Shown in pieces: positions 43,586 through 59,542 of a DNA stretch of 64,000 nt; position 1 is the stretch's first letter, and each line of letters starts with the position of its first letter. The translations under genes and the position numbers were made by a program. A model generated the notes under the pieces. That model was given only the letters and a program-made list of their open reading frames with translations. It made no database searches and had not been told where the DNA came from. Origin of the DNA: an uncultured Pelagibacteraceae bacterium (GTDB lineage: Bacteria > Pseudomonadota > Alphaproteobacteria > Pelagibacterales > Pelagibacteraceae); contig CACEQR010000008.1 of assembly GCA_902561765.1 (NCBI GenBank), positions 1 through 64,000 of the forward strand, read 5' to 3'.

Positions 43586-45808
43586 CTAGTTTACCAAAGG
43601 TTTACCAGTTTTCAATGTATGTTTAATTCTATCTTGAGTTTTTTCTGTCTCAATTAGCCTCATAAAAGCATCTAGTTCTAATTTGTATAGATCATCCTCT
43701 GATAGAGTATTTTCTAAATTAGTGTCACCACCACTTAAAACTTTAGCTAACTCTTTTCCAACTTCCATTCCATGATCAAGAATAATTTTTTCATTATATA
43801 ATTTTTCTAACATTTTTACCATTTTGTCATAAACATTTTTTCCTGAAAGTTTAAAAGTACATTCAGTTGGAGGGGTAAAATCATTGTTATTTTTAATAAT
43901 TTCTTTTGAAACTGATAATAAACTATTTCTACTCATTATTTTTTTATCCTCTGGTCTTAAATATTTTAGTGGTTCAGCCTCAATTGGGGAAGTTGCAGTT
44001 TTAGCATATCCAATAATATCAAATACTTTAAGAGCAGCATAATCAGGATCATTCTTGGCTTCCTCTGTTTGAGACCATCTCCAAAGCATTTCTTTACATC
44101 CACCACCAGCTGGAATTAATCCAACCATTGTTTCTACGAGACCAACAACAATATTTGTATGAGAAGCTACAAAATTACTTTGACATAAAACTTCAAAACC
44201 ACCACCTAATGCTAAGCCAGATGGAGCTGAAACAACAGGAAATTTTGAATACTTTAAATGTTTACAAGTTTCTTGAAAATATTTAACAAACTTTTCAATA
44301 GATTTAAAATCATCCTTGTCTGCAAAATTCATTGTATAAGATAAGTTTACTCCAGCAGAAAACTGCATTGCTTCATTTATAATTATAAGCGGTTTGTCAG
44401 TTGCATTTTTTAGACTATCCATTGAGTCATAATCTAATGCATTAGCTTTTGTGGTAAATTCAACAATATTAAAATCATTGAATCTATAAATTTCAGCTGA
44501 GTTGTTTTTATCTAATTTGAGTGCTTTAGGTTTAATTTTTCCAAGAGTTTCTAAATCAGTATATTGTTGTCTTTCCCCATAAAAGTTTTCATCTTTACTT
44601 TTCGATAAATCTTCAAGAAACTTATTATTTTCGAAAGTGTCTAATCTTTCAAAAAAATTCTTTACTCCAATTTCTTTTAACATTTCGAAAGGTCCTTTAG
44701 ACCAATTAAAACCTAGTCTCATTGCTTCATCAATATCATTAAATTTATCAGTTATCCCTGGAACCAATGAAGATGCATATTTAATAATTTTTGATAATAC
44801 AGACCAGGCATATTCACCATATTTATCTTTTCTATTGATTAAGTTAACAATATCCATCTTTTCTGATCCTAGATTAAACTTATGTGATATTGAATATTCA
44901 CCAGTTTCTAAATTGATACCTTCAAGAACTTTTTTACCATCAGTTTTATGCATTCTATAAAATCCACCTTTGCCTTTTCTACCTGTATAACCAGTTTCGA
45001 TAAGTTTTTTTACAAGTGGTATTTCTTTAGCAACAACTTGAAAATCATCTGACTCAGGAAGTTCTTTTATAAAACTCTTTAAAACATCAGCCATTAAATC
45101 AATACCAATCAAATCATAGAGTCCAAAAACACCAGTTTTTGGTATTCCCATTGGTCGACCAAAAACTGCATCAGCTTCTTCAATTGTTAGTTTCATTTTG
45201 AATGCTTCTGTCATTGCTACTTGCATGGCATAGACACCTATCCTATTTCCTAAGAAGCCTGGCGTATCGTTACAAATTAAAGTTCCTTTTCCTAAATCTT
45301 TTTCACAAAAATTTTTAAGTGAATTTATCTGTTCTAAATCATTATTTTCATTTTTCACAATTTCTAATAAATCCATATATCTAACTGGATTAAAAAAGTG
45401 AGTTATACAAAAGTCTTTTTTTTCTTCATTTGAAAGTTTTTCCGAAAGTACTTTGATTGGAATAGAAGATGTATTTGAGGATACAATTGACCCTTTTTTT
45501 CTTTCTTTAAAAATTTTTTCATAAATATTATGTTTGATATCAATTCTTTCTACAACAGCTTCAACAATCCAGTCAGCCTCACCAACTTCATTAAAGTTAT
45601 CATTTATGTTACCAACATTAATATTATTGATTTTAGATTTATCGACCAATAAAGGAGGTCTTGATTTTAGAATTCTTTCTCTAGCTTTCTCAGATATTTC
45701 TGTTGTTAAATCTAGTAATGTAACTGGAACATTTGCATTACATAGTTGAGCAGCTATTCCGCTCCCCATCGTCCCTGAACCTATTACAACAACTTTATTA
45801 ATTTTCAT
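43586..45808 (-). CDS. 3-hydroxyacyl-CoA dehydrogenase / enoyl-CoA hydratase (FadB/FadJ-like)
   Basis: 740 aa; VVIGSGTMGSGIAAQLCNANVPVTLLDL, FFNPVRYMDLLEIV, crotonase-like C-terminal region LALGGGFEVLCQSNFVASHTNIVVGLVETMVGLIPAGGG. Confidence 0.93.
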   Translation of the reverse strand: MKINKVVVIGSGTMGSGIAAQLCNANVPVTLLDLTTEISEKARERILKSRPPLLVDKSKINNINVGNINDNFNEVGEADWIVEAVVERIDIKHNIYEKIFKERKKGSIVSSNTSSIPIKVLSEKLSNEEKKDFCITHFFNPVRYMDLLEIVKNENNDLEQINSLKNFCEKDLGKGTLICNDTPGFLGNRIGVYAMQVAMTEAFKMKLTIEEADAVFGRPMGIPKTGVFGLYDLIGIDLMADVLKSFIKELPESDDFQVVAKEIPLVKKLIETGYTGRKGKGGFYRMHKTDGKKVLEGINLETGEYSISHKFNLGSEKMDIVNLINRKDKYGEYAWSVLSKIIKYASSLVPGITDKFNDIDEAMRLGFNWSKGPFEMLKEIGVKNFFERLDTFENNKFLEDLSKSKDENFYGERQQYTDLETLGKIKPKALKLDKNNSAEIYRFNDFNIVEFTTKANALDYDSMDSLKNATDKPLIIINEAMQFSAGVNLSYTMNFADKDDFKSIEKFVKYFQETCKHLKYSKFPVVSAPSGLALGGGFEVLCQSNFVASHTNIVVGLVETMVGLIPAGGGCKEMLWRWSQTEEAKNDPDYAALKVFDIIGYAKTATSPIEAEPLKYLRPEDKKIMSRNSLLSVSKEIIKNNNDFTPPTECTFKLSGKNVYDKMVKMLEKLYNEKIILDHGMEVGKELAKVLSGGDTNLENTLSEDDLYKLELDAFMRLIETEKTQDRIKHTLKTGKPLVN

Positions 45809-45880: not shown

Positions 45881-46444
45881 TTATCTAATAAATTTTGTAA
45901 TTGAAGGAATAATTGCAACAGCTAGTGCAATTTTAAACAATTCACTTGGTAAAAAAGGATATAGACCACCAGCAAGTGCCTTGTCATATCCAATAACTGA
46001 GCCTAAATAGCCCACCCCAACTATAAAAATAATTGAAGTTGCAATCAGTAGTGAAATTAAACTTTTAAAGTATGAGTTGTTAAAATTTCTATCAGCTAAA
46101 TAACCGATAACCCCTGCTGCGATTGTCATTCCATAAAGATATCCTGCAGTAGGTCCAGTTAAATAAAGCAATCCTCCTCCTTTAGCAAAAACTGGCAGTC
46201 CAATGGCTCCCTCGAATAAGTAAAGTAAAAGTGTAAAGAAAGCTAATTTAGAACCATATGTCATTCCAATTATAAATACTGCAAATGTTTGCATAGTCAT
46301 TGGTACTGGCCAGAATGGTACTTGTACTTTTGATGAAAATGCTAAAATTAATGTTCCAATCAACATTAAAGAAATATTTTGAAAAAAGGCATTTATTCTA
46401 TAATCTGAAAGTAAATTTTTTATTAATGTAGAATTATTTTTCAT
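45881..46444 (-). CDS. bioY: biotin transporter BioY
   Basis: 187 aa multi-TM; VQVPFWPVPMTMQTFAVFIIG and GLPVFAKGGGLLYLTGPTAGYLYG. Confidence 0.93.
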   Translation of the reverse strand: MKNNSTLIKNLLSDYRINAFFQNISLMLIGTLILAFSSKVQVPFWPVPMTMQTFAVFIIGMTYGSKLAFFTLLLYLFEGAIGLPVFAKGGGLLYLTGPTAGYLYGMTIAAGVIGYLADRNFNNSYFKSLISLLIATSIIFIVGVGYLGSVIGYDKALAGGLYPFLPSELFKIALAVAIIPSITKFIR

Positions 46445-46497
46445 ACGATATTATTTAAGCACAAATAAATAAATTTTAAAATAATAAATTTAATCTT

Positions 46498-48522
46498 TTA
46501 AAATTGTTCTTTTTGTAATTCTTTAATGGGTATATGACATCTGATAGCGTTACCACTATCTGTTAATTGCCATGGTGGTATTTCTTTCTTACAAATATCT
46601 CCAACAATTCTGGAGCATCTGCCTTGAAAACTGCAGCCTTTTTCAGGAGGTCTTTCTTCAACAATATCCTCAGCAACTAATTTAGGTTTTATATCTGGAT
46701 CTGGCTCTAAGACAGCACCCAACAAAACTTCTGTATAAGGGTGAGATGGAAACTTATAAACATCATTTGAAGGTCCAACTTCACAAAGTCTTCCTTGATA
46801 AAGGACTGCTACTCTATCACTAATTGCTCTTACAACGGCTAAATCATGTGATACAAAGATATATGTAGTTCCAAAATCTTCTTTTAGTTGTTGTAATAAA
46901 TTTAATACAGCTGCTTGCACGGAAACATCTAAAGCAGATGTTACCTCATCACATAAAATAATATCTGGTTTTGCAGCAAAAGCTCTTGCAACCGCTACTC
47001 TTTGTTTTTCACCACCAGACAGTTGTCTTGGATATCTAGAAGTATAAAATTCTCCAAGCCTTACTTTTTGTAATAGGTCTATAATATTTTTTTTTAATTC
47101 TTCACCTTTTAATCCAAAATATAATTTTAATGGTTGAGCAATAATTTCTTCTACTGTGTGGTTTGGATTCAAAGACTCATCTGGATTTTGAAATATTAAT
47201 TGAATAATTCTTAAATCATTGGGATCTCTTTCTTTCAAATCAGAAGATAAATTTCTATTTTCATCAAACCTTATTAGACCATCTTTAGTTCTAAGTAGTC
47301 CAGCAATTGATTTGAGAATTGTTGATTTTCCACTTCCTGACTCTCCTACTAAAGCTATTGTCTCTCCCTTTTTAATATTAATATTAATATCTTTAACTGT
47401 AGGGTTATCATCAGAAATTCTATTGAAAATTTGATCTAAAAGTTTTTGTTTAGCGTAACTTATAGATACTTCTGATAAATTTAATATTTCTTGATCTTGT
47501 GATTTATTCTTAATTTTATTAACAGTTTGACTAGCCTGACTCTCGTTCACAAGTTTTTCATAATTAAAACATCTAACACTAGTATTTAAATCTTTTAAAA
47601 ATTCTAATTTAGGAGAATTATTTTTACAATTTTCATCTGAAAAGTTACATCTATCAAAAAAACTACAACCACTTTGAATTGTACCCGGTTGAGGTTGACT
47701 ACCAGGCATCGACTCTGGAAGACCAGCTAAAGATAATTTTGGTATAGATTTAAGCAATCCGTGGGTATAAGGATGAATTGGTCTTTTAAGGATATCTCTT
47801 GATGGACCTTCTAAAACGATTTCTCCTGAATACATAACAATAATTCTGTCACTCACTTGAGCAATAGCTCCAAGATCATGGCTCACATAAACCATTGATG
47901 TTCCAGTATCTTTTGCAATAAAATTGAGAAGCTCTAATACATGAGCTTGGGTTGTTACATCTAGTCCAGTTGTTGGTTCATCTAAAAGAAGTAAATCCGG
48001 AGTCCCAGCTAAAGCCATAGCTACAGCAACTCTTTGCTGTTGTCCTCCTGAAAGTTCATGAGGATATCTAAGAGCAATTGTTTCAGGTGAAGGAAGTCTA
48101 ACTTTATTCAATAGTTCTGAAATTTTTTTTTCTCTCTCTTTTTCATTTAAATCAGAGTGTAATTGCAAAGCTTCATCAATTTGATAACCTATTTTTAAGT
48201 TTGGAGTCAATGCTTGACCTGCATTTTGTGGAATCATTGCTATCTTTCTACCTCTAATTTTTTCTAAATCTTTACTTTTCATTTTCAGTAGATTTGATGA
48301 ATTAAACTGACATTCTCCTTCAATAGTATAAAGTCCATGTTTGACATAACCCATCATTGCTAATGCTAATGTGCTTTTTCCAGAACCAGATTCCCCTACT
48401 ATTCCAACTGTCTCACCCTTTTTAATATTTGTGCTTATATTTTTTAAAATTAAGATTTCTTCACCCTTTTTACTTCTAAATCCAATAGATAAATTTTTTA
48501 CTTTTTGAATTATATCAGTCAT
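46498..48522 (-). CDS. dipeptide/oligopeptide-type ABC transporter, two fused ATPase domains
   Basis: 674 aa; two Walker A GESGSGKST, two LSGG(Q/E)xQRVAVA signatures, two oligopeptide C-terminal Cys motifs. Confidence 0.93.
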   Translation of the reverse strand: MTDIIQKVKNLSIGFRSKKGEEILILKNISTNIKKGETVGIVGESGSGKSTLALAMMGYVKHGLYTIEGECQFNSSNLLKMKSKDLEKIRGRKIAMIPQNAGQALTPNLKIGYQIDEALQLHSDLNEKEREKKISELLNKVRLPSPETIALRYPHELSGGQQQRVAVAMALAGTPDLLLLDEPTTGLDVTTQAHVLELLNFIAKDTGTSMVYVSHDLGAIAQVSDRIIVMYSGEIVLEGPSRDILKRPIHPYTHGLLKSIPKLSLAGLPESMPGSQPQPGTIQSGCSFFDRCNFSDENCKNNSPKLEFLKDLNTSVRCFNYEKLVNESQASQTVNKIKNKSQDQEILNLSEVSISYAKQKLLDQIFNRISDDNPTVKDININIKKGETIALVGESGSGKSTILKSIAGLLRTKDGLIRFDENRNLSSDLKERDPNDLRIIQLIFQNPDESLNPNHTVEEIIAQPLKLYFGLKGEELKKNIIDLLQKVRLGEFYTSRYPRQLSGGEKQRVAVARAFAAKPDIILCDEVTSALDVSVQAAVLNLLQQLKEDFGTTYIFVSHDLAVVRAISDRVAVLYQGRLCEVGPSNDVYKFPSHPYTEVLLGAVLEPDPDIKPKLVAEDIVEERPPEKGCSFQGRCSRIVGDICKKEIPPWQLTDSGNAIRCHIPIKELQKEQF

Positions 48523-48524
48523 AA

Positions 48525-49418
48525 TTAAACAGGAGCTTTAGTTGATCTATCTATACCTAAAGCTTTGGCAAAAGCGTCTGCTGTTAAATTAATACCAATA
48601 ATTAAACTACTTAATCCAACTATTGGTGCTATTACTGCCCAATAAGCGAAAGACATCAAACCTCTGGCATTTGATATCATTAATCCCCAGTCTGGAGTTG
48701 GTGGGCTAACCCCAAAACCTAAAAAAGATAGAGAACTAAAACCAAGCAACATCCATGACCATCGCATTGCACCTTCAACTAAGATTGCATCTCTTACATT
48801 AGGAATTATTTCATTCCAAATAATTGAAAAATTACTATGTCCCCTTGCTCTCGCAGAGACTATAAAATCTTTTGCAATAACATCATGTGTTGCTGCTCTT
48901 GCGACTCTTACAATTCCTTTGCCGTAAAAAAAACCTAAAGCAGGTATCAATACTTCAGTAGATGTGCCTAACAAGGATACAATCAATAACATTGCTAATA
49001 TCCATGGAATAGATAAGAACGCATCTACAATTCTCATAACTACATCGTCAATTTTTCCTCCTACCAATCCACAAAATATTCCTAAAAGACCACCCCACAG
49101 TAATGCTATTAAAGATCCAAAGAAAGTTATTGTTAGAGCCGTTCTTCCCCCCAAAATTGTTCTAGTAAAAACATCTCTTCCAAGATCGTCCGTTCCAAAC
49201 CAATACTCAGCTGAAGGAGCCTGGAGCATTAATGTTGGATCTATAGCTTTAAAATCATGAGGTGCAATATAAGGGCTTATAAATGCAAGAATTATATGAA
49301 AAACTAAAATACTAAGGCCGATAAGTCCAGATGGTCTTGAAGCCATCGTAATTATAATTTCAGATAATTTTGCAAAAGTACTTTTCTTCTCTTCTTTATA
49401 AATATTATCCAATTTCAT
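48525..49418 (-). CDS. dipeptide/oligopeptide-type ABC permease (DppC-like)
   Basis: 297 aa; YWFGTDDLGRDVFTRTILGGRTAL, FLGFGVSPPTPDWGLMISNAR. Confidence 0.92.
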   Translation of the reverse strand: MKLDNIYKEEKKSTFAKLSEIIITMASRPSGLIGLSILVFHIILAFISPYIAPHDFKAIDPTLMLQAPSAEYWFGTDDLGRDVFTRTILGGRTALTITFFGSLIALLWGGLLGIFCGLVGGKIDDVVMRIVDAFLSIPWILAMLLIVSLLGTSTEVLIPALGFFYGKGIVRVARAATHDVIAKDFIVSARARGHSNFSIIWNEIIPNVRDAILVEGAMRWSWMLLGFSSLSFLGFGVSPPTPDWGLMISNARGLMSFAYWAVIAPIVGLSSLIIGINLTADAFAKALGIDRSTKAPV

Positions 49419-49419
49419 A

Positions 49420-50376
49420 TTATTTTCTAATCTGTAAAGTTTTTAATCTAGGGTTAAGCATCAATGTCAATAGATCTGCTAATAAATTTATACTTACATA
49501 AATAGATGCAAGAATTATCGCTAATGCTTGAACTGTAGGTAAGTCTCTATTTGAAATAGATTCAATAACTAATCTTCCAAGACCTGGATAATTAAACACA
49601 ACTTCAGTTACTACAACCCCACCTAAAAGCCATGCAATAGTCAATGCCACTACATTAATAGCAGGCAATAAAGCATTTGGTAAAACATGTTTGAAAACCA
49701 TTTTCCAATAAGGAACTCCTTTAAGAATTGCCATTTGAACATATTCACTTGCCATTACTTGAATTACACTTGACCTTACCATTCGCGCCATGTGAGCCGT
49801 CATAATCATAGCTATAGCAACCACTGGTAAAATTATATTTGGTAGCAACTCTAGAAAAGATACATCGGTTGGAACTATTACGATACCAGGCAACCACTCT
49901 AACCATATAGCAATTATTAAAATTAACAAAGTAGCACTAATAAATTCTGGAATAGTCATTGCAAATATTGTTACAGTTGATATTGCAACATCAGGTAATT
50001 TATCTCTCCACAGAGCAGTAATAATTCCTAAAATTAAAGCTATTGGTATACCTATAAAAATTGCAGCTGATGCCAATACTAGTGAATTTTTAATTCTAGG
50101 TCCCAAAACTTCTTTGATTGGCATCTCTCCACTTAAAGAATAACCAAAGTCTCCTTGAATAGCATTTAATGCCCACGATACATATCTCTCATATGCTGGA
50201 ACATTTAAACCAAGCCTTCTGTAACAAGCTTCTAATTGCTCACCAAAAGCTTGTCTTTCAAGATAAGTTGTACAAGCATCGCCCGGTAATACTTCTGTGC
50301 CTACAAATGTAATTATAGAAACAATAAATAAAGTAATAAAACCTAATAAAATTCTTTTTATTATTAAAAAAAGCAT
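49420..50376 (-). CDS. dipeptide/oligopeptide-type ABC permease (DppB-like)
   Basis: 318 aa; LPGDACTTYLERQAFGEQLEACYRRLGLNVPAYERYVSW, VVTEVVFNYPGLGRL. Confidence 0.92.
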   Translation of the reverse strand: MLFLIIKRILLGFITLFIVSIITFVGTEVLPGDACTTYLERQAFGEQLEACYRRLGLNVPAYERYVSWALNAIQGDFGYSLSGEMPIKEVLGPRIKNSLVLASAAIFIGIPIALILGIITALWRDKLPDVAISTVTIFAMTIPEFISATLLILIIAIWLEWLPGIVIVPTDVSFLELLPNIILPVVAIAMIMTAHMARMVRSSVIQVMASEYVQMAILKGVPYWKMVFKHVLPNALLPAINVVALTIAWLLGGVVVTEVVFNYPGLGRLVIESISNRDLPTVQALAIILASIYVSINLLADLLTLMLNPRLKTLQIRK

Positions 50377-50419
50377 AAGAATTTTTAAATTTTAAATTAT
50401 TTATTGAGAAATGAAAGAG

Positions 50420-50451
50420 GTTTTACAGGCCTACCTAAAGGCCTGTAAAAC
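50420..50451 (-). terminator. Perfect 13-bp hairpin downstream of family 5 solute-binding-protein gene
   Basis: gttttacaggcct-acctaa-aggcctgtaaaac; exact inverted repeat. Confidence 0.7.
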
Positions 50452-50459
50452 AAAAATTA

Positions 50460-51947
50460 TTACTGAACACTCAGTGTGTGCCATCTAATTGAAAAATACT
50501 CAACTTCGTCAAGATTTTTCACTCTAGAGGACGTAACAACAAGTCTAGACACATGGTAAGGGATCATTGTTCCAGATTCTTCCCATAATGTTTTTTGAGC
50601 GTTAATATATGCTGCTTTTCTTTTGCTAAAATTTAACTCACCTCTTGCGTCAGCTAAATTCTTATCAAAAGAAGCACTTTTATAGTACGACTCGTTCCAT
50701 TTTGCTTCGCTATGATATGCTTCATGCAAAATACTATCTGCTGGTCTTTCGTTCCAACGTGTCATTGCTACAGCTTTTTTCATCCAAGTTTCATTCCAAT
50801 AACTTTTTGAAGGTGTCATTTGAATATCTGCTCTGATATTAGCTTTAGCAAATTGTTGTTGTAAAACCTCAGCAATAGTTGGCCATGTTGGTTCTTTTGT
50901 AGATACATGAATTGTGAAGTCAATACCATCTGGGTAACCTGCCTCTTTTAGTAATTTTTTTGCTGTAGCTGGTTGTGGTGGACAATTCTTTTTCATTCTA
51001 TATTGATCTGATGGTGCAACAGGAGTATCGCAAGATACAGTTGCTGCTCCAGCCATTACTAAATCAACTAGTTCTTGTCTATCAACAGCTATTCTTACAG
51101 CCTTTCTTACTCTAGGGTCATCAAAAGGCGCAACATCAGTTCTCATTACCATACCTCTCCAGTTTCCTGTAGGTATTACTGAAACATTAAACTTTGAATT
51201 ACCGTCAAATATTTTTTTCTGATTGAATGGAATATATCTATTCATATCTATTTGACCAGTTAGTAAAGCTTGAATTCTTGCTTGACCATCTGGGATAGCT
51301 ATTACATGTACCTCAGCAAGTTTCGGCGCTCCTTCCCAATAATCTGGATTTGCTTTAAGTATTGTTGTTCCCTCAGCATCAAATTTATCTACTATGAAAG
51401 GTCCAGTTCCAATACCTGTTTTTCCAATAGTATCGCCTGATCCATTTGGTATCATTCTTAATCTATAATCAGTTAATAAAAGTGGAAAATCTGCGAATGA
51501 TGTGTTCAACTTTATTTTTACTGTATGTGAGTCAACAACTTCAATATCTGTTACTGCACTCATGCTCTTCTTAGCAGGTGAACCAATTTCAGGATCTTTA
51601 ACTCTCATCAATGAGTATTTTACATCCTCTGCATCAAAATCAGATCCATCATGAAATTTAACACCTTTTCTTAAGTTAAATGTCCATTCTGTTGCATCTG
51701 CGTTACCCGACCAGTCTGTAGCTAACTCAGGAGAAGTAACTCCTTTAAGATCTTTTCTAACAAGACGGTTTTGAGTCATTATTACTACTTGAAATAGTCT
51801 TCCTTTAGTAATTGCATCTAAATTTGTATCTTTTCCAAAACCAAGATCATGAGATAACTTAAAAACCCCACTTGAAGCGTTGGCAAATGAAAATGTTACA
51901 AATAGTGATACCAATGAAATTGATATCAATTTTAAAATGTTTTTCAT
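50460..51947 (-). CDS. ABC transporter substrate-binding protein family 5
   Basis: 495 aa with signal peptide; WTFNLRKGVKFHDGSDFDAEDVKYSLMRV typical SBP_bac_5. Confidence 0.93.
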   Translation of the reverse strand: MKNILKLISISLVSLFVTFSFANASSGVFKLSHDLGFGKDTNLDAITKGRLFQVVIMTQNRLVRKDLKGVTSPELATDWSGNADATEWTFNLRKGVKFHDGSDFDAEDVKYSLMRVKDPEIGSPAKKSMSAVTDIEVVDSHTVKIKLNTSFADFPLLLTDYRLRMIPNGSGDTIGKTGIGTGPFIVDKFDAEGTTILKANPDYWEGAPKLAEVHVIAIPDGQARIQALLTGQIDMNRYIPFNQKKIFDGNSKFNVSVIPTGNWRGMVMRTDVAPFDDPRVRKAVRIAVDRQELVDLVMAGAATVSCDTPVAPSDQYRMKKNCPPQPATAKKLLKEAGYPDGIDFTIHVSTKEPTWPTIAEVLQQQFAKANIRADIQMTPSKSYWNETWMKKAVAMTRWNERPADSILHEAYHSEAKWNESYYKSASFDKNLADARGELNFSKRKAAYINAQKTLWEESGTMIPYHVSRLVVTSSRVKNLDEVEYFSIRWHTLSVQ

Positions 51948-52059
51948 AATTTCCTCTCTTTAAAAAAACAAAAGGTAACAATTAGATACTTATATAGCAA
52001 CAGTCAAAATGGACATTTTTTATTTGTTTTATTGGTGTATTCTGATTATCTAAAAAATA

Positions 52060-53283
52060 ATGAATGATTTAATCAATAAATATAGGTTTACTGTAAAGCC
52101 TGTTAGCCTTGAAAATTCAAATTCATTAGAGCTTGCAAGATCAATTCAAGTTCATCCCTTAACTTATCAAGAATTGCCATATGATCCAGAATATTCAAAT
52201 TACTCAGGAAGATTAACCCTTGAAAAATTATCAAATGTTAGTCCAGAAGAAATGTATTGGAAAGCAAGAAGAGAAATAATTTTTAGACATACAGGTGAAC
52301 ATCCATTTGAAATATCAGGACCAGATGCCCTTGAATTTTTGCAAAATATATTTCCAAGAGATGTTTCAAAAATAGCTGTAGGAAGATGCTCCTATCAGTT
52401 TGCTTGTTACCATGATGGAGGAATGATTACTGATGGTGTACTTTTAAGAATTGATAAAGATAAATATTGGTTTGCTCAAGCTGATGGTGACCTATTTTCT
52501 TGGTACAAAGCACATTCTAAAAATTTAGATGTTGAAATCAGTGATCCAGATGTATGGGTAAGTCAAGTTCAAGGCCCATTATCGATGAAACTACTTGAAA
52601 ATTTAAGTAATGGTTTCTCTGAAAATGATTGGAAGTATTTTGATTGGAAAGAATTAAAAATTTTAGATCAAAAAGTAATTGTAAGTAGAAGTGGTTTTAC
52701 TAATGAACTTGGTTGGGAAATTTATTTTCGACCTGAAAATGAAACTGAGAAAATTGGAGATTATATTCTTGAACAAGGAAAAAAATTAGGTATGGTTTTA
52801 GTGGCAACGCCTGGATTTAGATGTAGAAGAATTGAAGCTGGACTTTTATCTGCAGGACAAGATTTTTCAAAAAAAACAAATCCTTTTTCAGTTGGTCTTG
52901 GAAGATTTGTTAATTTTAATAAAGAGGATTTTATTGGTAAAGAAGCTCTTTTATCATCAGACAAAAAATGTAAGACATGGGGAATTAGGGTTATGGCTGG
53001 TACTGCAATTAAAGGAGAGAGTATTAAAATTAATGAAAAAGAGGTTGGTAAAATAACTTCTAGTACATGGTCACCATATCAAGTTTGTGGTGTTGGTATA
53101 GTTCACTTTAATAATGATGAAAATGGACCAGGTGATATAGTAGATGTTAAATGTACTGATGGTAAATTACACAAAGGTCAAATCTGCAAATTACCAATGT
53201 ATGACGAACAGGGAAAAATAGTTAGGGGTTTAGATAGAAATATTCCAAATGGACCTAAACCTTGGCCTGGTATCAAAGCTTAA
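52060..53283 (+). CDS. GcvT-family (aminomethyltransferase-like, THF-dependent) protein, substrate unknown
   Basis: 407 aa; GPDALEFLQNIFPRDVSKIAVGRCSYQFACYHDGGMITDGVLLRI, VSRSGFTNELGWEIYF, FRCRRIEAGLLSAGQDF, DFIGKEALL. Confidence 0.83.
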   Translation: MNDLINKYRFTVKPVSLENSNSLELARSIQVHPLTYQELPYDPEYSNYSGRLTLEKLSNVSPEEMYWKARREIIFRHTGEHPFEISGPDALEFLQNIFPRDVSKIAVGRCSYQFACYHDGGMITDGVLLRIDKDKYWFAQADGDLFSWYKAHSKNLDVEISDPDVWVSQVQGPLSMKLLENLSNGFSENDWKYFDWKELKILDQKVIVSRSGFTNELGWEIYFRPENETEKIGDYILEQGKKLGMVLVATPGFRCRRIEAGLLSAGQDFSKKTNPFSVGLGRFVNFNKEDFIGKEALLSSDKKCKTWGIRVMAGTAIKGESIKINEKEVGKITSSTWSPYQVCGVGIVHFNNDENGPGDIVDVKCTDGKLHKGQICKLPMYDEQGKIVRGLDRNIPNGPKPWPGIKA

Positions 53284-53304
53284 ATTGTAAAACAAATATA
53301 TTTT

Positions 53305-53997
53305 GTGACTGTCGAAAAAAAAATAATTACTATCGGAGGTGGAGGCTTCACTCACAACCAAGATAATGATCAAGATAAATTAATTTTAGACCATATAAAC
53401 AAAAAAAAATGTTCATTAGGATTTTTACCAACTGCTAGCAATGATAATACACATAAAACTGATCTATTTTACAAGAGATTTGAAATATTAGATTTAAATG
53501 TATCTCATTTCGATTTAATCTCTAGTATTAATGGTTTCGAAAATTGGCTTTCAAAACTTGATGCAGTTTATGTTGGTGGAGGAAATACTAAATTCATGCT
53601 CGAATTTTGGAAAGAAAATAATTTGATAGGAATTTTTAAAGAAGTTTATAATTCAGGTATAATTCTATCAGGAGTAAGCGCTGGTGCTGCATGTTGGTTC
53701 GATTATTTTCTAACAGACTCAGATGGACCTGGTTATAAACCATTGAATGGTATTGGTCTTTTGTCGGGAAGTTTTACACCACATTACTCAGACTCAAAAA
53801 GAGCAGAAAAATATAGAGAAAATATAAAAAATAAAACTTTGCCAGATGGTATAGGTGTTGATGATGGTGTTGCAGTACTTTTTATTGACGGAAATCCAAC
53901 TGAGGTTTATTCTTCTAGAAAAGGCCATAATGCTTATTTTGTAGATCAAAATAAACAAATTAACTTAAAAGAATATATTAAAGCTAATTATGAGTGA
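53305..53997 (+). CDS. peptidase E-like (S51) family protein
   Basis: 230 aa; ITIGGGGFTHNQDN, YVGGGNTKFMLEFW, LSGVSAGAACWFDYFLTDSDG Ser nucleophile. Confidence 0.85.
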   Translation: MTVEKKIITIGGGGFTHNQDNDQDKLILDHINKKKCSLGFLPTASNDNTHKTDLFYKRFEILDLNVSHFDLISSINGFENWLSKLDAVYVGGGNTKFMLEFWKENNLIGIFKEVYNSGIILSGVSAGAACWFDYFLTDSDGPGYKPLNGIGLLSGSFTPHYSDSKRAEKYRENIKNKTLPDGIGVDDGVAVLFIDGNPTEVYSSRKGHNAYFVDQNKQINLKEYIKANYE

Positions 53998-55153
53998 TAA
54001 TATTTTACCAAGTCAAAAGATTTTTAGTATTAAGGATGCAAGAGATCTATCACGCAAACGTTTACCTAAATTAGTTTTTGATTTTATAGATGGAGCATCA
54101 GGAGATGAAAAACTTGCTGAAATAAATAGTATTGCTTTAGACCAAATTAGGCTTGAACCCAAAGTTTTAAGAAATGTAGAAAAAAGATCACTTAAGAAAA
54201 AAGTATTAGGTTATGAATTTGACTTTCCTTTTGGATTTGCACCTATGGGCATGACAAATCTATCTTGGCCTAAAGCTGACTCAATGTTAGCAGCAGAAAG
54301 TGCAAGAAATAATATTCCAACTTGTGTTTCCATGGCATCTACTACAACTTTAGAAAAAATGTATGAACTATCAGAGGGTCATTCATGGATGCAATTATAT
54401 ATTTTCCAAGATGAAAATTTTGTTATGGAACTTTTGGATAGAGCTAAGAATACTGGTTACGAAGTTGCTATTTTAACTGTAGATGTGCCAGTGCTATCAA
54501 GAAGAACTAGAGATGATAAAAATGGTTTCGCCTACCCCTTTAAGATAGGCCCAAAACAGTTTTTTGATTTTGCAACTCATCCTACTTGGTCTTTATCAAC
54601 TTTGCTTAGTGGAATTCCTAAACCTATGAACTACGTAACATCAAAAAGTGGAGATGGAATATTTAAAAGAAAAGAAAGCAGGGGTACCACTGATTGGGAT
54701 ACACTTAAAAGAGTAAGGGACAAATGGAAAGGTAAGCTTGTAATTAAAGGAGTAATGTCTCCTGATGATGCAATAAAAATTAAAGAAGCTGGTGCGGATG
54801 CTATTCAAGTTTCAAATCATGGTGGGAGACAATTAGACAGCGCAACTGCAGCAATAAATATGCTTCCACTGATCAGAAAATCCGTTGGAAGTGATTTTCC
54901 TTTAATATTTGATAGTGGAATAAGAAGTGGAAGTGATATTGTAAGAGCTCTTGCGTTCGGTGCAGATTATACAATGATTGGAAGGCCCGTAATGTATGCA
55001 ATGGGAGCTGATGGAAAAAAAGGATTAAGAAGAATAATTGAAATTATTAAAGAAGAAGTTAGCACAACTCTTGGCTTGGTTGGATTAAATGATATTAATG
55101 ATGTAACATCTAAGATAGTAATAGAAAATACTATTAATAAGGTAACTTACTAA
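53990..55153 (+). CDS. FMN-dependent alpha-hydroxy-acid oxidizing protein (LldD/glycolate oxidase-like)
   Basis: 387 aa; FDFIDGASGDEKL, FGFAPMGMTNLSWPKADSMLA, LVIKGVMSPDDAIKIKEAGADAIQVSNHGGRQLDSATAAI. Confidence 0.93.
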   Translation: MSDNILPSQKIFSIKDARDLSRKRLPKLVFDFIDGASGDEKLAEINSIALDQIRLEPKVLRNVEKRSLKKKVLGYEFDFPFGFAPMGMTNLSWPKADSMLAAESARNNIPTCVSMASTTTLEKMYELSEGHSWMQLYIFQDENFVMELLDRAKNTGYEVAILTVDVPVLSRRTRDDKNGFAYPFKIGPKQFFDFATHPTWSLSTLLSGIPKPMNYVTSKSGDGIFKRKESRGTTDWDTLKRVRDKWKGKLVIKGVMSPDDAIKIKEAGADAIQVSNHGGRQLDSATAAINMLPLIRKSVGSDFPLIFDSGIRSGSDIVRALAFGADYTMIGRPVMYAMGADGKKGLRRIIEIIKEEVSTTLGLVGLNDINDVTSKIVIENTINKVTY

Positions 55154-56896
55154 ATGAGTGAAAATAAAATTAGAGGTGGAGCGTTACTTGCTAGAGCTCT
55201 AAAAGATAAAGGGATTAGTAAAGTTTTCACTCTCTCAGGAGGTTTTTGTAATCCAGCAATTGAAGGTTTTGCTGAGTGTCAAATTGAAGTAATAAATACT
55301 CCTCATGAGCAGATTGCGGGTCATTTAGCAGATGGAAATACAAGAATTACTCGAAAGCCGTCAGTTTGTTTAGTTGGACCAGAGGGATTTACTAACGCTG
55401 TCCCGTCAATGATGGAGGCCTGGGGCGAGAGAAGTCCTATTATTTATATTACAGGTTCCAGCAGTCTTAAAAGACAAGGTTCAGGAGGTTTTAAAGAAAT
55501 TGATGATGTTTCAATTGCAGCACCTTTAACTAAATACAGTGCAAGTATAACTGATGGAACTAGAATAAGAGAATTTGTCGATAAAGCATATCATATTGCT
55601 ACAAATGGTTACCCTGGTGCTGTACATCTTAGCTTGCCAGTTGATATAATGTTTTCATCTTTTGCTGAAGAGGTTGGATTAGAAGAAAGACCATTCTCTC
55701 ATAAAGCTAAACCTTTAGCTAAAGCTTGGCCAGAGCCAAATTCACTTTCGGAAGTTTTAGAACTTGCATGTAATTCAAAAAAACCAATTATCATAGGTGG
55801 CCATGGAGTTTGGTGGTCACATTCAGAAAAAAATCTTGAAGAGGCTGGTAATAATTTAAATATACCAATTTTTAATGTTCCATATCATCAAAAATTATTA
55901 GGAGAAGAAGCGAATGCATATATGGGTTTAGCTGATATACATCAATATCCTCCATCAGAATTTGCATTACATAATTCAGATTTAGTTCTTGTGGTTGGAG
56001 CACGTTTAGATAACCAAATGAATTTTGGAAATCCACCTTTTATTCCAAAATCAACAAAGTTAGTTTGTATTAATGGCTCCCATGAAGAAATAGAACTCAA
56101 CAGAGCAGCTGATTTAACTTTGCTAAGTGATCCTGGTGTTTTCCTAGATACATTGTCAAATTTAAAAAAAAATAATAAATGGTCTTTAGATACAACTTGG
56201 TTCGAAGAGAATAAAAAAAAGAAGAAAGAATGGGTAGAAAAATCTTTGAAAGATTTAGAAATTGAGGCTGAGTCATCAAAAAAAAATGGAGGAAAAATTC
56301 ACCCTTTACAACTTTCATTAGATGTTCAAGAAGTAATGGGTGAAAATGATTGGCTTGTGATCGATGGAGGAAATACTCATTTCTGGTCAGAAATTGCAAT
56401 TAATATTGCAGGTGCAAAAGGTAAAAAATTAAAAGGGATCTTGCATCCAGGAACATTTAGTATGTTGGGTGTTGGAGTTTCATTTGCCTTATCTGCTAAA
56501 AATCATAGTCCAGACTCAAATGTCGTTTTGATTAGTGGAGATGGTGCATTTTTATCAGGCGGCATGTCTATTGAAAGTGTGTTTTATCAGAAAAAACCTA
56601 TTACTGTTGTAATTGATAACAATGGTGGATTAGCTTCAATTGGACAACAACAAGAGAGGCTATTTAAAAGTGGAAAAAGCGTTGCAACAGATTTTCGAGA
56701 TATCCCATTTCATAAGATATTTGAGGGTTTTGGAGGACATGGAGAATTAGTTAATAAAAGAGAGGAACTCGCACCAGCGCTAAAAAGAGCAATCGAAAGT
56801 GGTAAACCCGCATGTGTAAATGTTAAAGCAAAACCAGTATTAAGTCCCATAGTCTCTGCAGTTGCAAGTAAAAGAGAAAAGTCATCAATAGAATAA
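55154..56896 (+). CDS. thiamine-pyrophosphate-dependent enzyme (acetolactate synthase-like superfamily)
   Basis: 580 aa; NTPHEQIAGHLADG catalytic Glu, TPP motif GDGAFLSGGMSIESVFYQKKPITVVIDNNGG. Confidence 0.9.
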   Translation: MSENKIRGGALLARALKDKGISKVFTLSGGFCNPAIEGFAECQIEVINTPHEQIAGHLADGNTRITRKPSVCLVGPEGFTNAVPSMMEAWGERSPIIYITGSSSLKRQGSGGFKEIDDVSIAAPLTKYSASITDGTRIREFVDKAYHIATNGYPGAVHLSLPVDIMFSSFAEEVGLEERPFSHKAKPLAKAWPEPNSLSEVLELACNSKKPIIIGGHGVWWSHSEKNLEEAGNNLNIPIFNVPYHQKLLGEEANAYMGLADIHQYPPSEFALHNSDLVLVVGARLDNQMNFGNPPFIPKSTKLVCINGSHEEIELNRAADLTLLSDPGVFLDTLSNLKKNNKWSLDTTWFEENKKKKKEWVEKSLKDLEIEAESSKKNGGKIHPLQLSLDVQEVMGENDWLVIDGGNTHFWSEIAINIAGAKGKKLKGILHPGTFSMLGVGVSFALSAKNHSPDSNVVLISGDGAFLSGGMSIESVFYQKKPITVVIDNNGGLASIGQQQERLFKSGKSVATDFRDIPFHKIFEGFGGHGELVNKREELAPALKRAIESGKPACVNVKAKPVLSPIVSAVASKREKSSIE

Positions 56897-56898
56897 AA

Positions 56899-57234
56899 AT
56901 GGCAATATTTTCATCACACCTATTAGACGCAACCAATGGATCTCATGCTGGGAAAGTTGATGTAATCATTTTTCAAATTAATGAAAATGGAGAAAAAGCA
57001 ATTTTCTGTGAAACTAAATCCGATGAAGGTGGAAGAATACATGAAGAATTTGATTTAAGTGAAAAAGATACTAAGTGTGAATATGAAATGATTTGTAAAA
57101 CAGGGAAATATTTTTCTGAAGAAAGAATAGTTTCAGAAATAAATATTAAATTTAAAATGGAAGATAATAATAAAAAATATCACATACCCATAATAATTTC
57201 CAAAAATAGTTACACTGTTTGGTGGTCAAAATAA
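56899..57234 (+). CDS. transthyretin/5-hydroxyisourate hydrolase-like protein lacking the YRGS C-terminus
   Basis: 111 aa; SSHLLDATNGSHAGKVDVIIFQI, DEGGRIHEEFDL, KKYHIPIIISKNSYTVWWSK. Confidence 0.75.
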   Translation: MAIFSSHLLDATNGSHAGKVDVIIFQINENGEKAIFCETKSDEGGRIHEEFDLSEKDTKCEYEMICKTGKYFSEERIVSEINIKFKMEDNNKKYHIPIIISKNSYTVWWSK

Positions 57235-57235
57235 A

Positions 57236-58402
57236 ATGATCAATGAAAATTTAATTACACAAAAAAATATCAAATTAAATATGTCGAGACGTATAAGACG
57301 TACTCCTTTTACAAACAAAGTTGAAGAATGTGGAGTATCAGATTTTACTGTCGTAAACCATATGTTGTTACCAAAGGGATTTAAGAATACAGTTGAGGAA
57401 GATTACTGGCATTTAAGAGAACAAGTTCAAGTCTGGGATGTTTCGTGCCAGAGACAAGTACAAATTACAGGTCCTGACGCAGCAAAGCTTGTTCAAAAAA
57501 TGACGCCGCGTTCTATTAAACAAATGGAGACTGGAAAATGTTTTTATATACCTATTATAGATGAGACTGCTGGAATGATTAATGATCCAGTTTTGTTGAA
57601 ACTTGATGACGATATGTTTTGGATTTCTATAGCTGACTCAGATATTTTGCTTTGGGCAAAAGGTATTGCATTAGGATCAGGATATAATGTTGAAATAGTG
57701 GAACCAGATGTTTATCCATTAGCTATTCAAGGTCCAAAATCTGAAGATCTTTTAGTTTCGATATTTGGCGATGAAATAAAAAAATTAAAATTTTTTAATT
57801 TTAAAGTTTTTGACTTTTTAGGTACAAAACAAATAATAGCAAGGTCTGGATATAGTAAGCAAGACGGTTTTGAAATTTATTTTAAAGGATTTGAAACACA
57901 TTTTAATGAAATTGATCTTGGTGAAAAACTTTGGGATATTGTATGGAGCCATGGTCAAAAATTTAATATTTCTCCAGGATGCCCGAACTTAATTGATAGA
58001 ATTGAGGCAGGACTTATGTCTTATGGTAATGATTTCACCAGAGAAAATAATCCCCTAGAATGTAATCTTGAAAAATATTGCAGTAAAGAGTATGACCATG
58101 ATTTTATTGGCAAAGAAGCCTTGAGAAAGATTCAATATGATGGAATAGAACAGCAAATCAGAGGTATTATATTTGATGGTGAACCATGCAAGCCGACTGG
58201 AGTTCCCTTGCCAGTTTACTCAAAAGATAATAAAAAAATTGGTCTAATAGCGTCTGGAATTTATTCCCCAAGAATCCAGAAAAATATAGGTTTATCAATG
58301 ATAAAGAGAGATTTTTGGGAGAGAGGGAATGATGTTTTTGTAAATACTTTTTATGGAAAAAATAGAAAAGGCGTTATAACTTCTTTACCATTTCCTGATT
58401 AA
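57236..58402 (+). CDS. DmdA-like GcvT-family protein (DMSP demethylase family or paralog)
   Basis: 388 aa; SRRIRRTPFTNKVEECGVSDFTVVNHMLLPKGF...EEDYWHLREQVQVWDVSCQRQVQITGPDAAKLVQKMTPR resembles the DmdA N-terminus; CPNLIDRIEAGLMSYGNDFTRENNPLECNLEKYC. Confidence 0.75.
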   Translation: MINENLITQKNIKLNMSRRIRRTPFTNKVEECGVSDFTVVNHMLLPKGFKNTVEEDYWHLREQVQVWDVSCQRQVQITGPDAAKLVQKMTPRSIKQMETGKCFYIPIIDETAGMINDPVLLKLDDDMFWISIADSDILLWAKGIALGSGYNVEIVEPDVYPLAIQGPKSEDLLVSIFGDEIKKLKFFNFKVFDFLGTKQIIARSGYSKQDGFEIYFKGFETHFNEIDLGEKLWDIVWSHGQKFNISPGCPNLIDRIEAGLMSYGNDFTRENNPLECNLEKYCSKEYDHDFIGKEALRKIQYDGIEQQIRGIIFDGEPCKPTGVPLPVYSKDNKKIGLIASGIYSPRIQKNIGLSMIKRDFWERGNDVFVNTFYGKNRKGVITSLPFPD

Positions 58403-58417
58403 GCTTATATTGAAAGT

Positions 58418-59542
58418 ATGTTTAAACCAGTAATAGCAGGATTTTCTAGATCACCTTTTACAATGGCTAGAAAAGGAGCTTTAATAGATTCAAAACCAGT
58501 TAATTTGTTAGCAGAAGTAATTAAAGATTTAGTATCTAAATCAAATGTTAAAAAAGATGATATTGAGGATATTGTCGTTGGTTGTGCATTTCAAACTGGA
58601 GAACAAAGTTTTAATATTGGAAAGTTGACTACTTTTCTTAGTGGCATGAATGTTAAAACTTCAGGTATGACGGTTGATAGATGGTGTGGCTCATCAATGG
58701 AAGCAATCCATATTGCAGCTGGTAAGATTTCTTTAGGTGCTGGAAAAGTATTTGTTTGTGGAGGGGTAGAAAGTATGACAAGAGTAAATACTGGTTTCGA
58801 GCCAATCCCATATCCTGAAAGCAAGACTGATAATCCACATGTATATTTTTCAATGGGAACAACTGCAGAAAATGTTGCAAAAAAATATAATATCTCAAGA
58901 AATGAACAACAGGAATTCGCCATATCTAGTCATCAAAAAGCACACGAGGCACAAACAAAAGGGAATTTTAAGAATGAGATAGTAGCAATAGGAGATTGTG
59001 ATACTGATGGAAATATAAGACCAAATAGTACTATGGAAAAATTAGATGGCTTAAAGCTTGCTTTTGATGAAAATGGAACGGTCACAGCAGCAACATCATC
59101 CCCACTAACTGACGGTGCTGCAGCAACATTAATTTGCGAAGAAAATTATGCAAAAGAAAATAACTTAACAATTTTAGGAAGAATAGTGTCAACTGCTGTA
59201 GAAGGTTGTGATCCTGATTACATGGGTTTAGGACCAATCGGAGCTTCAAAAAAAGCATTGGAGAGAGCTAAATTGTCAGCTGATCAAATAGATATTGTAG
59301 AATTAAATGAAGCTTTTGCCTCTCAATCCTTAGCCTGTATTAAAGATTTAGGTATTGATAAAGATAAAGTTAATTTAGATGGTGGAGCGCTTGCCTTAGG
59401 TCATCCGCTAGGAGCGACCGGTGCTAGAATAACTGGCAAAGCTGCAGAATTACTCAAGAGAGAAAACAAAAAATACGCATTATCAACTCAATGTATCGGT
59501 TTAGGAATGGGAATTGCTACAGTGATTGAGTCTGTAAATTAA
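58418..59542 (+). CDS. thiolase (acetyl-CoA acyltransferase family)
   Basis: 374 aa; VDRWCGSSMEAIHIAA, VELNEAFASQSLACI, GGALALGHPLGATGARI, CIGLGMGIA. Confidence 0.95.
   Translation: MFKPVIAGFSRSPFTMARKGALIDSKPVNLLAEVIKDLVSKSNVKKDDIEDIVVGCAFQTGEQSFNIGKLTTFLSGMNVKTSGMTVDRWCGSSMEAIHIAAGKISLGAGKVFVCGGVESMTRVNTGFEPIPYPESKTDNPHVYFSMGTTAENVAKKYNISRNEQQEFAISSHQKAHEAQTKGNFKNEIVAIGDCDTDGNIRPNSTMEKLDGLKLAFDENGTVTAATSSPLTDGAAATLICEENYAKENNLTILGRIVSTAVEGCDPDYMGLGPIGASKKALERAKLSADQIDIVELNEAFASQSLACIKDLGIDKDKVNLDGGALALGHPLGATGARITGKAAELLKRENKKYALSTQCIGLGMGIATVIESVN

Follow-up and report, generated by a model that had tools for sequence, protein, structure and literature searches.

Gene content of the locus

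We studied a 64,000-nt stretch of DNA from an uncultured SAR11 (Pelagibacteraceae) bacterium, below called the window. Seven open reading frames (ORFs) on its forward strand, at 52060-59542, encode a GcvT-family methyltransferase (GcvT1), a peptidase of family S51, a flavin mononucleotide (FMN)-dependent 2-hydroxyacid oxidase, a thiamine pyrophosphate (TPP) enzyme, a hydrolase similar to 5-hydroxyisourate hydrolase (HIUase), a DmdA-family protein (DmdA2), and a thiolase (Table 1). The initial annotation of this DNA had described them as co-directional, tightly packed genes next to a divergent family-5 ABC importer. The importer, the layout and all seven family assignments were reproduced: the ORFs are found at the same coordinates, with intergenic distances of 21, -8, 0, 2, 1, and 15 bp, and the Pfam and NCBIfam profile searches used to assign the window proteins to families gave matches far above chance for all seven. 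The genome carries 12 GCV_T matches. Together with the importer, the enzymes constitute a conserved, co-inherited importer-plus-catabolism unit, in which the TPP enzyme and the HIUase-like protein form an invariant pair.

Inheritance of the cluster in SAR11

The gene order and the flanks are syntenic in approximately 80 SAR11 contigs. Among 101 SAR11 genomes, the gene of the TPP enzyme is present in 15 and that of the importer's solute-binding protein (SBP) also in 15, both being found in 13 (hypergeometric p ~1e-12); in all four discordant genomes (G005, G017, G009, and G031) a contig end falls inside the cluster. The cluster is missing from several complete SAR11 genomes, and in six cluster-free genomes (G012, G307, G397, G016, G022, and G029) FadB directly adjoins PotC, the two being tens of bases apart. 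Hence, positions 45881-59542 of the window are a 13.7-kb insert of the importer and the enzymes between FadB and PotC, with FadB and the Pot transporter outside it, and the importer and the enzymes are gained and lost as a block, that is, as one inherited unit. The functional unit exceeds the seven genes: it also takes in the importer (46498-51947), plus the gene of a BioY-like protein in this lineage.

The conserved flanks, and the fact that SAR11 genomes are generally compact and syntenic, speak for a chance or loosely linked neighborhood of housekeeping genes; however, this is contradicted by the presence and absence of the block with an exact empty site, by the recurrence of the cluster in other orders, and by the functional replacement of its parts across loci. 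Given the synteny, the SBP/TPP co-occurrence and the empty site, we rejected this explanation as hardly credible. The initial proposal of a single catabolic unit with its own importer is thus upheld, and the gene-neighborhood survey that it called for finds the genes together in SAR11 and in other orders; nor do the genes each match an unrelated known function.

Table 1. Genes of the insert in the window, with the evidence for their assignment.
Feature	Position	Strand	Evidence
BioY-like membrane protein	45881..46444	-	Assigned by eye; no NCBIfam match
Opp/Dpp-type ABC importer, fused double ATPase	46498..48522	-	NCBIfam OppD/OppF-like matches
Opp-type permease C	48525..49418	-	Profile match and synteny
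Opp-type permease B	49420..50376	-	Profile match and synteny
Family-5 SBP	50460..51947	-	Profile match; co-occurs with the enzyme cluster
GcvT1, GcvT-family methyltransferase	52060..53283	+	Pfam GCV_T, 3.7e-42
Peptidase S51 (aspartyl-dipeptidase/cyanophycinase family)	53305..53997	+	Pfam Peptidase_S51, 3.6e-37
FMN-dependent 2-hydroxyacid oxidase	53990..55153	+	Pfam FMN_dh, 4e-119
TPP enzyme, own subfamily	55154..56896	+	Three TPP-enzyme Pfam domains
HIUase/transthyretin-like hydrolase	56899..57234	+	Pfam Transthyretin/HIUase, 5.4e-19
DmdA2, DmdA-family protein	57236..58402	+	GCV_T and NCBIfam DmdA equivalog, 525 bits vs. cut-off 410
Thiolase	58418..59542	+	Pfam/NCBIfam; in the SAR11 insert, outside the core of most other lineages

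The fused double ATPase occupies the same position in SAR11 loci and has orthologs in L130 and L176. The BioY-like gene belongs to the block in this SAR11 lineage only, being absent between FadB and the ABC ATPase in L080-L103, and its product probably lies outside the pathway. FadB, which forms one edge of the insertion site (43586-45808), is a single large protein matching a Staphylococcus-type FadB model below the cut-off; as a flanking gene that occurs without the cluster, it was rejected as a pathway member. At the other side, in one SAR11 genome (L134:2908-6615), the thiolase and PotC are separated by an insertion that carries a complete TRAP transporter together with an IlvE-type aminotransferase. 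No Rfam riboswitch match was found in the window, and promoter and terminator scans gave matches below the shuffled expectation and were uninformative.

Distribution in other Alphaproteobacteria and replacement of parts

Orthologs of the TPP enzyme are 64-81% identical and separated by a distinct gap from the next relatives (36-38% or lower). Outside SAR11, they are carried by other Alphaproteobacteria, namely by 33 of 100 genomes of the G261 order, approximately 31 of 121 of the G313 order (SAR116), five of 14 of the G466 order, and one of 121 of the G772 order; a plasmid search found no ortholog. Many SAR116 loci and G772 likewise have a divergent Opp importer, with the SBP 56-58% identical, as well as S51 and a LysR regulator. 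The order FMN oxidase - TPP enzyme - HIUase-like protein - DmdA2 is fixed in the SAR116 and G772 neighborhoods, and these four genes are retained at most loci. The irreducible pair across loci is the TPP enzyme and the HIUase-like protein, whose genes are adjacent everywhere except two paralogous loci (L177 and L178). The initial annotation had listed the HIUase-like protein correctly, but underestimated its weight. Outside SAR11, most loci have no thiolase. It was rejected as a pathway member, and the acyl-CoA processing suggested initially finds no support as a core step of this enzyme.

Other components are exchanged. GcvT1 is present in SAR11 and in the order of G261, while many SAR116 loci, including L130 and L132, have an MTTB-family gene (PF06253) next to S51, in a place comparable to that of GcvT1 in SAR11. 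The MTTB protein of L130 matches the Pfam family, scores 329 bits against the 525-bit cut-off of the curated pyrrolysine enzyme, and is encoded by a continuous 541-aa ORF; PYLIS_3 Rfam matches in L130 and L132 merely mirror the mttB homology. A TRAP DctPQM transporter replaces or joins the Opp system in L132, L134, L168, L175, and L188. Two groups carry the TPP-HIUase-like pair without the FMN oxidase and DmdA2. The pair follows an asparaginase, in place of S51, in L133 and L173, and adjoins two PhyH dioxygenases in L169 and L170, the latter having also a TauD-type one. In L174 an Ldh_2 dehydrogenase is found at a distance of approximately 6 kb, on the far side of a Liv-type ABC transporter; an Ldh_2 gene also follows DmdA2 in L131, L132, and L188. 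Thus, GcvT1 and MTTB, S51 and asparaginase, Opp and TRAP, and the FMN oxidase and Ldh_2 or PhyH dioxygenases are apparently equivalent swaps. They suggest several types of steps (amide hydrolysis, methyl removal or oxidation, and oxidation of the alpha carbon), all feeding the TPP enzyme and the HIUase-like hydrolase.

Several related arrays were observed. A paralogous SAR116-type cluster (L177:2207-6931 and L178:9233-16359), with a TPP enzyme 36-38% identical to that of the window and lacking the HIUase-like gene, contains a choline-dehydrogenase-like GMC oxidoreductase and a Dabb-domain protein, accompanied by a DmdA-like protein and enoyl-CoA hydratase in L177, and by an OpuAC-type betaine ABC transporter in L178. 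In the order of G261, a homocysteine S-methyltransferase-family gene, below the BHMT and MmuM cut-offs, lies directly upstream of GcvT1 (L129:6662-7585). GcvT1 orthologs are also found outside the cluster. That of G961 adjoins alcohol and aldehyde dehydrogenases, and that of G856 belongs to a co-directional array (L254:5914-13369) of the order dddP-Rieske-GcvT1, in which dddP scores above its NCBIfam cut-off and the Rieske protein resembles glycine betaine monooxygenase; a CaiB-type CoA-transferase is part of the array, and an Opp-type importer lies near it. This is a second putative demethylase context.

Catalytic motifs

Among its single-domain PDB relatives, the FMN protein is matched best by (S)-mandelate dehydrogenase; it keeps the catalytic Tyr/Asp/His/Arg motifs (QxY, TVDVP, SNHGxRQL), and in the TPP protein E52, G462-D463-G464, and N489-N490 (GDG...NN) are invariant. 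The oxidation of a 2-hydroxyacid and a TPP-dependent C-C cleavage, both suggested initially, are supported as predictions. S51 retains its nucleophile motif GxSAGA (conserved as GVSAGA), and the proposed hydrolysis of an amide or peptide bond gains support as a recurring step from this family and from the asparaginase in one other order. The HIUase-like protein has H7, R45, and H95 conserved across 37 orthologs. The family signature of HIUases is the C-terminal tetrapeptide YRGS, replaced in the orthologs by Y-x-x-W-x-S; since, moreover, the protein scores below the NCBIfam HIUase cut-off (68.9 vs. 87.45 bits), its substrate is probably other than 5-hydroxyisourate. PDB relatives of the family-5 SBP and of the TRAP protein DctP are too diverse, and transporter homology was dropped as a source of the ligand.

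With the TPP profile, the highest scores are those of benzaldehyde lyase/formolase and 2-hydroxyacyl-CoA lyase (HACL), oxalyl-CoA decarboxylase being also a neighbor. As benzaldehyde lyase/formolase cleaves acyloins, and there are GcvT-family O-demethylases (LigM, DesA), which give weak scores, the GcvT/DmdA-type enzymes might strip an O-methyl group from a ring, e.g., of a mycosporine-like amino acid, and the TPP enzyme would cut the hydroxyketone laid bare in this way. We consider this very improbable: DmdA2 resembles the S-demethylase DmdA far more than it does LigM and DesA, the known MTTB enzymes act on quaternary amines, and a literature search found nothing on degradation of mycosporine-like amino acids. 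Likewise, nothing was found in the literature on an HIUase combined with a demethylase, or on this combination of genes, which, as initially stated, does not correspond to a pathway characterized in the literature searched.

DmdA2 and DmdA

The genome has a clear DmdA ortholog elsewhere (L104:6864-7973), 46% identical to DmdA2. The initial assignment of DmdA2 as DmdA-like stands, with the qualification that the DmdA2 proteins form a single clade (support 100/98) separate from the DmdA proteins, whereby the branching deeper in the tree is weakly supported (62/35 for the DmdA group); tested for orthology to the biochemically proven DmdA, DmdA2 did not qualify. DmdA2 retains the DmdA-family motifs NDP and SGxSxQ...E.Y and has two fixed changes, Y32V and E63Q (3TFH numbering; V40 and Q72 of DmdA2), the residues at these positions being Tyr and Glu in DmdA and almost all other relatives. 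It coexists with true DmdA in SAR11, the order of G261, G856, and G772. Among the SAR116 genomes examined, a canonical-type DmdA is present in addition to DmdA2 in the low-GC G856 alone; DmdA2 is the closest DmdA relative in the seven SAR116 genomes first examined (f110/f239), and of the three candidates in G313 only DmdA2 (634 bits) exceeds the NCBIfam cut-off, the others scoring 384 and 371 bits. Further DmdA-like families, approximately 36-40% identical to DmdA, occur in SAR116 and SAR11 (L236:5925-7046, L237:6014-7168, L248:5341-6489); the two that were scored fall just under the cut-off, and one lies beside an enoyl-CoA hydratase.

As DmdA2 scores above the cut-off everywhere tested, it will be annotated as a dimethylsulfoniopropionate (DMSP) demethylase. 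It may indeed be a second enzyme of this kind, the cluster handling either DMSP itself or a conjugate that contains it and the rest of which would be processed by the S51, HIUase-like, FMN, and TPP enzymes. The score, the 44-48% identity to SAR11 DmdA, the dddP adjacent to the GcvT1 ortholog in G856, and the published naming of SAR116 dmdA as clade B (PMC6309047, PMC6771949) all favor this possibility. Nevertheless, we regard it as unlikely, albeit deserving serious attention: the importers are of the Opp or TRAP type and not betaine/DMSP transporters, and a substrate other than DMSP is indicated by the separate clade, the coexistence with true DmdA, the fixed changes, and the absence of dmdB-, dmdC-, and dmdD-type genes from the core, with an enoyl-CoA hydratase nearby only in the order of G261.

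Subclades B/3 and B/4 of dmdA have been assigned to SAR116 (PMC6309047, PMC6771949), one survey reporting dmdA in the low-GC LGC2 group of SAR116 only (PMC8547437), and another, across most of SAR116 (PMC12262181). DmdA2 appears to be this clade B dmdA, and counting or not counting it would explain the disagreement between the surveys. Should DmdA2 prove not to demethylate DMSP, the dmdA counts from which DMSP demethylation is estimated would include a misassigned share (clade B, SAR116).

Proposed pathway

We favor, with some reserve, an uptake-and-catabolism island for a small carboxylated methylated compound of the sulfonium or ammonium type, with an amide-like bond and distinct from DMSP. 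The reaction order given below is the most likely one, and so is, as the candidate substrate, a methyl-onium carboxylate distinct from DMSP. The compound would be imported by the Opp-type ABC system (elsewhere by TRAP or other importers), and S51 would cut an aspartyl- or amide-type bond. DmdA2, aided by GcvT1 in SAR11 or MTTB in many SAR116, could then move the methyl group or groups, ultimately to tetrahydrofolate (THF), consistent with the initially suggested THF-type methyl transfer, which the sequence data support. The FMN enzyme would oxidize an alpha-hydroxy acid to a 2-oxo acid, the TPP enzyme would cleave the C1-C2 bond, and the HIUase-like protein may hydrolyze a ring or an activated product. 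One-carbon units would enter THF oxidation, and the SAR11 thiolase may process downstream acyl-CoA. Overall, the initial interpretation thus stands in part, as to the unit, the importer, the demethylase, and the oxidation/cleavage logic, but not as to the thiolase in the core.

Several observations weigh against this scheme. The roles of S51 and the HIUase-like protein are predicted from fold and motif. GcvT1 and MTTB are missing at some loci, and two groups have the TPP-HIUase-like pair but no DmdA2, so that methyl removal may be dispensable in some versions. DmdA2 is as similar to DmdA as the DmdA clades are to each other (46%), and DMSP may therefore still be its substrate. A tryptophan in DmdA was reported to be DMSP-specific (W171 in PMC7487153). 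All DmdA2 proteins have Tyr at this position, and so does the acuI-linked DmdA of G772. This residue, which by our own mapping we take to be W197 of 3TFH, hence does not discriminate, and was dropped as proof against DMSP.

The most concrete candidate substrate is 4-dimethylsulfonio-2-hydroxybutyrate (DMSHB), a known algal intermediate (PMC5395565), which would make the pathway a special case of the above, catabolism of a 2-hydroxy sulfonium compound: DmdA2 would demethylate it, the FMN enzyme would produce the 2-oxo acid 4-methylthio-2-oxobutyrate (MTOB), and the TPP enzyme would decarboxylate the latter. This fits the pair of 2-hydroxyacid oxidase and TPP enzyme and the DmdA-type demethylase; the homocysteine S-methyltransferase in the order of G261 and the IlvE-type aminotransferase of L134 agree with a methionine-related substrate. 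However, S51 and the HIUase-like protein, the latter being invariant, are left without a role, and two groups have the TPP-HIUase-like pair without the FMN oxidase and DmdA2; both this specific route and 2-hydroxy sulfonium catabolism in general seem rather improbable.

Returning to the methyl-onium carboxylate pathway in its broader form, we would put midway between likely and unlikely the proposition that a widespread marine pathway built on the invariant TPP/HIUase-like pair degrades a methylated metabolite so far unrecognized as a substrate of SAR11 and SAR116, both of which abound in the ocean, and that the clade B dmdA encodes its demethylase rather than that of DMSP. With its two importer types and four core enzymes, the locus offers a concrete, testable set of genes that could lead to a labile methylated metabolite not known so far.

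Comparison with known systems

DmdA2 shares with the DmdABCD pathway the DmdA family, the NCBIfam score, and the THF-type methyltransferase fold and motifs, but it forms a separate clade with fixed changes, and the cluster core, lacking DmdB, DmdC, and DmdD, has FMN, TPP, HIUase-like, and S51 enzymes instead. SAR11_1265 and SAR11_1303 are SAR11 aminomethyltransferases of unknown function suspected to be THF demethylases (PMC3160333); GcvT1 and DmdA2 belong to the same superfamily and are apparently additional members of it. The mandelate module, (S)-mandelate dehydrogenase and benzoylformate decarboxylase, likewise combines an FMN-dependent 2-hydroxyacid oxidase with a TPP enzyme, whereas the TPP protein of the cluster is nearer to benzaldehyde lyase and HACL/oxalyl-CoA decarboxylase, and the partners differ. 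Alpha-oxidation (PhyH and HACL) resembles L169 and L170, where the TPP subfamily of the cluster is found beside PhyH dioxygenases; however, no acyl-CoA ligase is seen in the core, PhyH is absent at most loci, and the partner is HIUase-like. Finally, 5-hydroxyisourate hydrolase (HIUase/PucM) has the transthyretin fold and the His/Arg/His residues in common with the HIUase-like protein, but the latter lacks YRGS and falls below the NCBIfam cut-off, and its cluster contains neither uricase nor OHCU decarboxylase.

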